Below, in pieces: positions 929 to 54,212 of a stretch of DNA of 64,000 bases. The stretch's first letter is position 1. The number at the start of each line of letters is the position of its first letter. The position numbers and the translations under genes are program-made. The DNA comes from Candidatus Sumerlaeia bacterium (lineage in GTDB: Bacteria > Sumerlaeota > Sumerlaeia > SLMS01 > JAHLLQ01), in NCBI GenBank assembly GCA_019634695.1, contig JAHCAW010000006.1, positions 62,001 through 126,000 on the forward strand, in the 5' to 3' direction. The notes under the pieces are model-generated. The model saw only the letters and a program-made list of their open reading frames with translations. It ran no database searches and was not told the origin of the DNA.

Positions 929-2101
929 ATGCTGCGAAGCCTCACGCTTGTCCTGGCCGCGTGCCTCATCCTCTCCTGCGCACGAGCCGGCGGCCGCACC
1001 GATGCGGGCCCCGCGCCCCGTGAACGCGGGGTCTGGCTCAGCAAGAACGAGATGCTGCTGCCGCGCGCCGAACTCGAGCGCCTGCTCGACGGCTTCGCCG
1101 AGGCCCGCCTCAACGTCGTCTACGTCAACGCGCAACTCCGCGGCTTCCTCATGTATCCGGGCAGCAAGCACGTGCCCCAGTGGCCCGAGATGGCCGCGCA
1201 CGATCCCCGCATCATGGACTGGCTCATCCCCGCCATTCACGCGCGCGGCATGCGGGCCGAGGCCTGGATGGAGTACGGCTTCTACGCCTACTGGACACCC
1301 GACGCCACGAAGGACTCCAGCCGCGGGCCCATCCTCGACAAGCATCCCGAACTCGTCGCCATCGACTCCGACGGCAACCAGTACCTGCACAACCGCAACT
1401 GGGGCGACTTCTACTCGCTCTGTCCCAGCAACCCCAAGTCCCACGCCATCCTCATCGACCTGATGGACGAGGTGCTCGCGCTCCACAACTTCGATGGCAT
1501 CAACCTCGACCGCATCCGCTGGACCTCCGAGCACTTCTGCTACAACGACCACTGCAAGGCTCGCTTCCGCGAGCACGCCGGCATGGACCTTGTCCCCTTC
1601 GATAACGGCACCCCCGAGTGGGAGACCTGGAACGCCTGGCGCAAGGAGCAGCTCAACGCCTTCATGCGCGCGCTCTCCACGCGCATTCGCACCAATCATC
1701 CCGGCAAGTCCCTCACCGCCGCCGTCATGCCCCCCTACATGATCGATGAAAAGGCGCAGGACTGGCCGACCTGGCTGCGCGAGGGGACGCTCGACCGTGC
1801 GATGCCGATGATGTACGTTCCGGACCTGACGCGCGAGACGGCCTCGCTGCGTCGCATCGTCCCGGCGTCGGACCTGTCCCGCGTCGTCTACGGCATCAAC
1901 ACCGAGCAGCGCGAGGAGATCGTCCTGCGCCAGCTCGGCCAGCTCGCCGCCATGGACGACATCGCCGGGTTCGCCATCTGGTTCTCCGGCTCGGTTGCCC
2001 CGATGCTGCCCGCCATCGCCGCCCTGCCCGACACGACTTTCGTCGAAACCCCCGTCGCCCCCGGCGACGAACAGACTCCCGACAGGGCGCTGTTTGAATG
2101 A
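929..2101 (+). CDS. GHL10 (DUF187)-type glycosyl-hydrolase-like lipoprotein
   Basis: 390 residues from an ATG preceded by a GAAGGAG ribosome site 9 nt upstream. Residues 1-18 are a lipoprotein signal ending in a lipobox (LILSC), so the protein is probably anchored in a membrane facing the periplasm or outside. The rest is a TIM-barrel family: RGVWLS at the start, NVVYVNAQLRG on strand 2, LHNFDGINLDRIRW on the strand that carries catalytic acids in related families, then a conserved FYSLCPSNP segment. Relatives are called GHL10 or DUF187, assumed to cleave glycans; the substrate cannot be read from sequence. The frame continues open upstream for over 200 codons, but that part is antisense-like and lacks a signal peptide, so the ATG at 929 is preferred. 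A heptamer repeat begins on its stop codon. Confidence 0.85.
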   Translation: MLRSLTLVLAACLILSCARAGGRTDAGPAPRERGVWLSKNEMLLPRAELERLLDGFAEARLNVVYVNAQLRGFLMYPGSKHVPQWPEMAAHDPRIMDWLIPAIHARGMRAEAWMEYGFYAYWTPDATKDSSRGPILDKHPELVAIDSDGNQYLHNRNWGDFYSLCPSNPKSHAILIDLMDEVLALHNFDGINLDRIRWTSEHFCYNDHCKARFREHAGMDLVPFDNGTPEWETWNAWRKEQLNAFMRALSTRIRTNHPGKSLTAAVMPPYMIDEKAQDWPTWLREGTLDRAMPMMYVPDLTRETASLRRIVPASDLSRVVYGINTEQREEIVLRQLGQLAAMDDIAGFAIWFSGSVAPMLPAIAALPDTTFVETPVAPGDEQTPDRALFE

Positions 2102-2132
2102 AGGATGAAGGCGGAAGGCAAAGGGCAGGGGG
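2098..2132 (+). repeat. Heptamer array (5 units) overlapping the GHL10 stop codon
   Basis: Five contiguous 7-bp units: two exact ATGAAGG copies (2098 and 2105), then CGGAAGG (2112), CAAAGGG (2119) and CAGGGGG (2126). The first unit contains the TGA stop of the preceding gene. The phase is unbroken, and every unit has G at its last two positions. Similar period-7 arrays follow the serC and metX stop codons. Confidence 0.8.
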
Positions 2133-2211
2133 CGTTTGATTCGTATCTTATGGATTGGCCAATGGAATCGGAAAGGTCAATCTGTGAATTTCCAATGATC
2201 CTGCCCCCTCG

Positions 2212-2253
2212 GTCCATCACGTCCATTTGGTCCGTCGTGTCCATCCGATCCAT
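2212..2253 (+). repeat. Nonamer array of GTCCAT units upstream of a thioesterase gene
   Basis: GTCCAT or a one-base variant recurs at 2212, 2221, 2230 (GTCCGT), 2239 and 2248 (ATCCAT): exactly 9-bp spacing for five units, with variable 3-bp linkers. It ends 9 bp before the thioesterase ATG at 2263. The same hexamer with the same period recurs at 31134-31166 and, inverted, at 31031-31066. Confidence 0.85.
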
Positions 2254-2262
2254 TGTCCTGCC

Positions 2263-2727
2263 ATGACGCCCTCCTTCCCGGTGCCTGAACTTCTCTCCCG
2301 CGAGCAACGGGTGCCGGGCCGCGTTGCGGTGGGCGATCGTGCGGCGGTGCGGCTGGCGCCGGGGTTGCTGGATTTTCTGATGACGCCGCCGGGCGGGGAC
2401 GTTCCGCCGCCCGGCCGCGGCACGCATCCCATGAGCGGCCTGCCGCTCGGCCTCGCCGTCGAGGCGGCCATCCAGGCTGTCGACGGGCACGCGAACGGCA
2501 TCGACGTCCTGCGCGCCTGCACGTGCGAGTTCCTCGCGCCGGTGCAGCGCTCCGCCGCCCTGGTCGCCCGGGCCCGCGTGGTGCGCCTCGGCCGGCGCAG
2601 CGTCACGCTGCACACCGAGCTGTTCCACGAGCACAACCCCGATGCCATCTTCCGCGCCGAGTGCACCCTCGTGCGCGCGCCGCGCGGCAGCGCCGAAGAG
2701 ATCGCGCCCTTTATGGCCCCGGACTGA
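2263..2727 (+). CDS. Probable hotdog-fold (PaaI-like) thioesterase
   Basis: 154 residues. The layout suits the hotdog family: a central helix with small residues (MSGLPLGLAVEAAIQAV), then strands LRACTCEFLAPVQRSAALVARARVVRLGRRSVTLHTELF. The phrase -V-RLGRRSVTLHTELF is the usual signature of PaaI/acyl-CoA thioesterase-like proteins (the 'vv-lGr-l-v-e-el' strand pair). Such proteins hydrolyse acyl-CoA thioesters in the cytoplasm; the acyl group cannot be deduced. The start is ATG at 2263, chosen because the 36 bases upstream in frame belong to the nonamer repeat array. No strong ribosome site is visible. The gene converges with rluB and is flanked on both sides by nonamer arrays. Confidence 0.6.
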   Translation: MTPSFPVPELLSREQRVPGRVAVGDRAAVRLAPGLLDFLMTPPGGDVPPPGRGTHPMSGLPLGLAVEAAIQAVDGHANGIDVLRACTCEFLAPVQRSAALVARARVVRLGRRSVTLHTELFHEHNPDAIFRAECTLVRAPRGSAEEIAPFMAPD

Positions 2728-9542: not shown

Positions 9543-9581
9543 AAGAAGAATGCGGCCCCGGCAAGGGGCCGCACTCTTCTT
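9543..9581. terminator. Bidirectional hairpin terminator between convergent sir and serC
   Basis: Stem TGCGGCCCC/GGGGCCGCA (9551-9559 with 9565-9573) around a GGCAA loop. It extends outward, after one mismatch, through AAGAAGA (9543-9549) and TCTTCTT (9575-9581). The A-rich and T-rich flanks suit termination on both strands. Confidence 0.8.
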
Positions 9582-9602
9582 AACCACGAACCACGAACCA
9601 CG
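9582..9602 (-). repeat. Heptamer array, three exact units, downstream of serC
   Basis: Three perfect AACCACG units on the plus strand (CGTGGTT reading with serC) at 9582, 9589 and 9596. The array ends 6 bp past the serC stop codon and abuts the terminator hairpin. The same CGTGGTT unit follows metX at 54112. Confidence 0.85.
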
Positions 9603-31030: not shown

Positions 31031-31066
31031 ATGGACCCGATGGACGTCATGGACCCGATGGACGTC
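31031..31066 (+). repeat. Nonamer/18-mer array of ATGGAC units
   Basis: ATGGAC occurs at 31031, 31040, 31049 and 31058, exactly 9 bp apart. Linkers alternate CCG and GTC, so the whole is two perfect 18-bp copies. It is inverted relative to 31134-31166. Confidence 0.9.
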
Positions 31067-31095
31067 ATGACGGGGCGCCTGCCCGCCCGTCCCTT

Positions 31096-31133: not shown

Positions 31134-31166
31134 GTCCATCTCGTCCATAGGGTCCATCGTGTCCAT
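31134..31166 (-). repeat. Nonamer array of GTCCAT units, inverted to 31031
   Basis: GTCCAT at 31134, 31143, 31152 and 31161, exactly 9 bp apart, with linkers CTC, AGG and CGT. It ends 55 bp past the stop of the minus-strand SPT-like gene. Confidence 0.9.
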
Positions 31167-54111: not shown

Positions 54112-54139
54112 CGTGGTTCGTTGTTCGTGGTTCGTTGTT
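54112..54139 (+). repeat. Heptamer array downstream of metX
   Basis: Four 7-bp units in strict phase alternate CGTGGTT (54112, 54126) and CGTTGTT (54119, 54133). The first begins 4 bp after the stop codon. CGTGGTT is the same unit, in the same gene orientation, as after serC. Confidence 0.85.
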
Positions 54140-54212
54140 TGTGAGACAGATCCGCACGATCCCTGCGGTCTCGTCACTCAAGCAGGTTCTCGAGACCGCC
54201 GCGCTGTCCGCA

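Follow-up and report, generated by a model that had tools for sequence, protein, structure and literature searches.

Arrays of the heptamers GGGNATC and GGGGAYT have been described in Xanthomonas and Nostoc, and their function was left open (PMC4692102; Rehm et al., 2015). They lie nearer the 5' neighbouring ORF in either direction, on the coding strand past stop codons and on the non-coding strand before start codons; few are located between divergent genes, and convergent inverted pairs occur (PMC4692102). The 7-bp STRRs of cyanobacteria are intergenic tandem repeats that sometimes form hairpins (PMC2670836). In marine Beggiatoaceae, the largest class of TAACTGA repeats ends 1 nt upstream of a start codon (PMC4679880; MacGregor, 2015), and, according to the same paper, the long SSRs of many bacteria are most often heptamers. 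Heptamer-derived satellites and SSR surveys have also been published (PMC6749651, PMC4060949), whereas the REP elements are GTAG/CGTC-tagged palindromes (PMC3733652). These accounts, and the comparisons made with them below, refer to the consulted passages of each paper.

The present study concerns an array of five heptamers in a stretch of 64,000 nucleotides from a Candidatus Sumerlaeia bacterium (the window), together with related arrays in the same genome (G000) and in other bacteria. Unlike GGGNATC and GGGGAYT, the units found here are ATGAAGG, CGTGGTT, GTTAGTG, and others, for which a GGG tract is unneeded. Like the cyanobacterial STRRs they form intergenic tandem 7-bp repeats, and the name STRR is used here for the period only; the rule of strand and gene edge that the arrays follow is absent from the STRR passages of PMC2670836. 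Heptamers adjoining start codons and a patchy occurrence across phyla are shared with the TAACTGA repeats, the outward strand of which, TCAGTTA, resembles the TCAGTTT family of a congener (G001). However, TAACTGA repeats adjoin start edges almost exclusively, with a single inverted repeat, whereas the arrays described here occur at both edges and in inverted pairs; the array under study itself has another unit and adjoins a stop codon. Being small, dispersed, intergenic, and able to form stems, the arrays are also reminiscent of REP elements, but they consist of degenerate tandem heptamers, and a conserved palindrome was not noticed at the locus.

As the strand-and-edge rule has already been published for the GGGNATC repeats (PMC4692102), it is not new for Xanthomonas and Nostoc. 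This work adds the units, the breadth of phyla, and the gain of spacer DNA: beyond the GGGNATC work, arrays are linked to spacer gain and the ATGAAGG unit is traced over about a dozen named phyla. No report of such a rule for (ATGAAGG)n across phyla was found in the literature searched, which most subscription papers lay outside. A rule obeyed by several unrelated units in many phyla, at starts as at stops, speaks against accounts based solely on 3' ends or G-quadruplexes. It also makes the origin of the heptamers testable: are arrays and spacer DNA gained in a single step?

Materials and methods

The genome G000 comprises 4.35 Mb in 127 contigs and is 86% complete. The sample consisted of stretches totalling 1.59 Mb plus the window (1.65 Mb, 38% of the genome) and contained 893 spacers (168 kb). 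Genes were called with a simple trained finder of our own making, runs of identity at lag p were scored in the spacers, and dinucleotide-shuffled sequences served as controls. Arrays were oriented by the G-rich strand read 5' to 3', and the gene behind an array defines its 5' edge. A score threshold of 9 placed 41 of 48 arrays nearer the 5' edge and a threshold of 11 placed 33 of 36 there; the stricter one is quoted throughout, except for pair and framing counts, which use 9.

For other bacteria, a scan for exact (ATGAAGG)4 yielded at least 120 stretches, with 80 loci among the matches listed. The matches listed comprised 86 cross-phylum arrays; 21 at contig edges and seven in called genes were set aside, leaving 58 intergenic arrays, 55 of which were used for the distal part of the spacer. 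Between G000 and G001, 79 conserved adjacent gene pairs lay within the sequence compared.

The array and its spacer

The features of the locus and the two further arrays of the window are summarized in Table 1. The five units read ATGAAGG, ATGAAGG, CGGAAGG, CAAAGGG, and CAGGGGG, with a lag-7 identity of 21/28, and the array begins one base ahead of the TGA of the GHL10 gene (PF02638, E=7e-23), which lies within the first heptamer. The array of five heptamers overlapping a stop codon, as originally reported, is real. Its lag-7 score of 11.5 compares with 0.8 occurrences of a score ≥11 per 168 kb of shuffled spacer. As it is missing from the TRF list at score 30, it is weak taken alone; what lends it credibility is the genome-wide context alone. 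The units contain GG, and seldom GGG.

Table 1. Coordinates of features in the window
Feature	Position	Strand	Remarks
GHL10 gene (PF02638), stop TGA 2099-2101	929..2101	+	
Heptamer array, ATGAAGG x2 + CGGAAGG, CAAAGGG, CAGGGGG	2098..2132	+	Left edge of spacer; G-rich strand directed away from GHL10
161-bp spacer between GHL10 and hotdog genes	2102..2262	.	
AT-rich spacer core	2133..2211	.	46% G+C over 2133-2212 vs 68% in the genome sample
Five degenerate nonamers, GTCCATNNN on + / ATGGAC-type on -	2212..2256	-	Right edge; read from sequence
Hotdog thioesterase gene (PF13622, PF03061)	2263..2727	+	
(CGTGGTT)3, equal to (AACCACG)3 on +, 6 bp from stop of aminotransferase class-V ('serC') gene	9582..9602	-	Edge-and-strand rule obeyed
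CGTGGTT/CGTTGTT array, 4 bp past stop of alpha/beta-hydrolase ('metX') gene	54112..54142	+	Edge-and-strand rule obeyed

At the opposite edge of the spacer, the inverted partner of the array is made of nonamers rather than heptamers. Their G/A-rich strand is directed away from the hotdog gene; they fall under the period-9 cut-off of 11 and are absent from the scored period-9 list. Folding of the 161-bp spacer was like that of its shuffles (z 0.11), Rfam gave no match at E≤1 within 1900-2500, and no promoter-like site was found at the locus. No terminator-like site was located in the spacer; two such sites sit within the next gene. Truncation of GHL10 at the array was considered and rejected after comparison by eye of the C-terminal ends with those of relatives.

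The arrays noted earlier after 'serC' and 'metX' were both recovered as described. Between (AACCACG)3 and the convergent neighbour, a terminator-like hairpin is seen by eye at 9550-9580, so that this array lies between stop codon and hairpin.

Excess of period 7 in the genome

In the spacers of the G000 sample, 36 period-7 runs scored ≥11, compared to 0.8 in shuffled sequence. Period 9 gave 25 runs (0.4 shuffled) and period 14, a harmonic of 7, gave 29; the remaining periods from 4 to 13 gave 0 to 3 runs each. Only nine period-7 arrays of this score were found in 1.47 Mb of called genes, against 36 in 168 kb of spacer. Searches by pattern agreed: AAGGNNNAAGGNNNAAGG had 14 matches in G000 and its reversed pattern none, and CGTGGTTCGTGGTT with ≤1 mismatch had 117 matches, its control five. 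The genome-wide scan suggested in the preliminary description thus recovered, over 38% of the genome, an excess of period 7 clustered just past stop codons. The comparison drawn there with STRRs is apt in the broad sense of intergenic heptamer SSRs, given the 36 runs versus 0.8 and their position outside coding DNA.

Position and strand relative to gene edges

The 5' gene edge was the nearer one for 33 of 36 arrays (17.8 on average under random placement, 29 in the best of 2000 trials), as in the GGGNATC repeats, and 25 of 36 started ≤20 nt from it (random mean 6.7, best 15). Random placement relative to genes, the counter-case named in the preliminary description, is rejected. The period-9 arrays, which serve as an internal control, showed no edge preference (2 of 25 at ≤20 nt, null 2.4). 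Divergent spacers harboured a single array of the 36, though they make up 30% of spacer DNA.

Stop edges accounted for 22 of the 33 arrays nearer the 5' edge and start edges for 11, a 2.3-fold preference per edge for stops in G000 (Fisher p 0.02). Whereas 21 of the 22 stop-edge arrays begin -8 to +13 nt from the stop, those at start edges range from -1 to 200 nt, and their G-rich strand is the non-coding one. ATGAAGG contains TGA and supplies the stop at some loci; CGTGGTT has no stop triplet, so that its nearness to stops is not an artefact of gene finding. G makes up 60% of the bases that separate edge and array, compared to 36% at control edges, and an outward skew is nearly nil in spacers without arrays.

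The link to stop codons therefore holds in part: arrays are tightly clustered past stops, but start edges obey the same rule. A role specific to 3' ends, as first proposed, is weakened by the start-adjoining arrays, by inverted arrays at both edges of a spacer, and by the near equality of starts and stops across phyla (see below). What the arrays have in common is their strand with respect to a gene edge and not the proximity of a stop codon.

Inverted arrays at both edges

Two inverted arrays, each with the G-rich strand first, framed 8 of 39 array-bearing spacers, while 0.65 would be expected for independent edges; convergent inverted pairs are a further likeness to the GGGNATC repeats. Both arrays belonged to one family in all eight pairs (chance 0.40 per pair). 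A ninth spacer held two arrays of different families in the same direction, and the other 30 held a single array. Excluding divergent spacers, those with arrays were longer (medians 176 to 237 bp vs 84 to 93 bp), which may be cause or effect of the arrays.

The same rule in other bacteria

Among the matches listed, (ATGAAGG)4 loci came, according to the record titles, from Planctomycetota, Verrucomicrobia, Acidobacteria, Cyanobacteria, Chloroflexi, and Proteobacteria. Further hosts among these matches were Armatimonadetes, Elusimicrobia, Hydrogenedentes, Chitinispirillaceae, Actinomycetota, Zixibacteria, and others, about a dozen named phyla altogether. The 5' edge was nearer for 46 of the 58 intergenic arrays among the matches listed, again as for the GGGNATC repeats, with 24 at stops and 22 at starts; a rerun with other training bins gave 47 of 60. 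In the same set, 38 of 58 arrays began ≤20 nt from the 5' edge and four ended ≤20 nt from the 3' edge. The distal part of the spacer held an inverted repeat in 25 of 55 cases and a direct repeat in four; TTCATCC was present there in 27 of 55, compared to 9 of 263 spacers without arrays (arrays again from the matches listed). Contigs of a viral collection repeated the ATGAAGG result (45 vs 16 of 63, null 27.2), while CGTGGTT arrays of that collection, 13 only, were nearer the 5' edge in seven cases.

The reversed unit GGAAGTA was rarer (9 stretches vs 65), yet six of its seven intergenic arrays lay ≤20 nt from the 5' edge. AAGAGTG, intended as a permuted control, occurred in 44 stretches, with 26 of 40 arrays at ≤20 nt (null 11.1). 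For GATAGAG, with five stretches, one of four arrays lay ≤20 nt from the 5' edge. An effect specific to the ATGAAGG motif was rejected, as GGAAGTA and AAGAGTG arrays obey the rule as well; it concerns G-rich heptamers and not one word.

Closer to the window, the GTTNGTK family is patchy, being present in 4 of 61 genomes around G000. In 0.80 Mb of the congener G001, 20 period-7 arrays were counted, the majority with the unit TCAGTTT; judged by eye, most of the 20 fit the layout and some do not.

Probable spacer gain against relatives

The GHL10 and hotdog genes, 161 bp apart in G000, are separated by 10 bp in G011 (same order, 59% identity in GHL10), and in G033 and G024 the stop of the one and the start of the other overlap as ATGA. 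The array probably marks one edge of DNA gained between the two genes. At three of the conserved gene pairs arrays are present only in G001, where the spacer exceeds its G000 counterpart by 524, 169, and 102 bp. The one pair with arrays only in G000 opposes this trend, the G001 spacer being the longer (2059 vs 612). The median spacer difference was 0 for the 75 pairs without arrays. Taken together, these comparisons indicate, in few cases, that arrays tend to accompany spacer gain.

Origin of the arrays

At about an even chance, we regard the array at 2098 as a member of a class of dispersed, degenerate intergenic heptamer repeats (STRR or long-SSR type) that adjoin gene edges, turn the G-rich strand outward, and come into being along with new spacer DNA through a process at the DNA level. 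Local synthesis, slippage, or an inserted segment bounded by inverted heptamers could produce both, and the repeats would persist only at sites that leave every gene intact, genes acting as a selective boundary. The stop codon would then merely mark the nearest tolerated point, here the TGA inside ATGAAGG, and the arrays would require no 3'-end function. A DNA-level origin bounded by genes is suggested by the like behaviour of start and stop edges across phyla. The account is favoured by the excess over shuffled sequence, by the edge and strand placement in G000, among the listed (ATGAAGG)4 matches and in the viral collection, by the inverted one-family pairs, by the longer spacers at this junction and three others, and by the near lack of outward skew in spacers without arrays.

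Several points stand against this account. In G000, stops are preferred and the distances to them are much tighter than those to starts, as a 3'-end role predicts. Cases of spacer gain are few, and longer spacers give more room for arrays. At the pair with arrays only in G000 the longer spacer is that of G001, and the viral CGTGGTT arrays follow no clear rule. Moreover, most published arrays of Xanthomonas are conserved in a comparison of two species (PMC4692102), pointing to stable arrays and not to rapid turnover. A further caveat is that the gene edges derive from our own finder.

A function at the RNA level is rather unlikely in our estimation. The arrays would then be elements of untranslated regions, as suggested for cyanobacterial STRRs: past a stop, a hairpin or barrier involved in mRNA stability, termination, or coupling; before a start, a leader free of structure, allowing initiation that does not rely on a Shine-Dalgarno site. 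The tight spacing to stops (-8 to +13 nt), the nearly empty divergent spacers (1 of 36 arrays), the possible base pairing of inverted pairs, and the array between stop and terminator-like hairpin at 9550-9580 (by eye) would suit such a role, and STRR hairpins and roles of this kind have been proposed (PMC2670836). However, the 161-bp spacer folds like its shuffles and has neither an Rfam match nor a terminator-like site, 30 of 39 array-bearing spacers have one array only, and an outward strand identical at starts and stops is not what an mRNA-based role predicts.

Plain slippage, by which heptamer SSRs would grow anywhere and persist only in non-coding DNA, with gene proximity a by-product of short spacers, is unlikely. 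The prevalence of heptamers among long SSRs, for which slippage has been proposed (PMC4692102, PMC4679880), the nine arrays in 1.47 Mb of coding DNA, and the slippage-like variation of the units are all consistent with it, but it leaves unexplained the strand orientation (33 of 36), the closeness to the edge (25 vs 6.7), and the inverted pairs of one family.

That a small mobile element, bounded by inverted heptamers and variable in its core, inserts between genes is improbable: edge-to-edge framing by inverted ends of the same family, spacer gain, the patchy GTTNGTK family (4 of 61 genomes), and dispersed repeats inside some cores speak for it, whereas cores of separate sites are mostly unrelated, unit order differs between the two ends, many arrays are single, no plasmid match was obtained (a repeat filter may hide matches), and the 161-bp spacer has different repeats at its two edges.

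Equally doubtful is a DNA-end process common to many bacterial phyla in which the 3' ends on both sides of intergenic breaks are extended by G/T- or G/A-rich heptamers, which would leave a scar like that of telomere addition at gene borders. The outward orientation at both edges, the G-rich stretches by the edge, the one-family pairs with unlike unit order, and the spacer gain between once-overlapping genes fit this account; we know of no enzyme for such heptamer scars.

Further repeats in array-bearing spacers

CGTGGTT arrays often alternate with CGTTNTT or similar units, which results in a super-period of 14 (54112-54142 in the window; C42:45890-45947 and C51:101995-102023 in G000). In G001, the spacer at C2:37716-38265 (L316) measures 550 bp, compared to 26 bp in G000, and TCAGTTT and CGTGGTT heptamers frame its AT-rich core. 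Near-perfect hairpins of (ATGAAGG)4, 13 bp, and (CCTTCAT)4 extend from edge to edge between genes at two sites of one Acidobacteriota genome (L191 1085-1163 and L220 5375-5452), with differing loops.

A dispersed repeat of about 30 bp with a GCTCACGCTCCGGGTTCTGATTGG core is present in three tandem copies at C79:25705-26030 of G000 (L135), inside a heptamer-framed core, and as single copies in many spacers. Within the window, one spacer contains ATGGACNNN units of a period-9 family (31031-31069) facing inverted GTCCATNNN units (31134-31166). In the genome sample, this family has both orientations in 3 of 8 spacers, shows no edge preference, and always has ATGGAC first.
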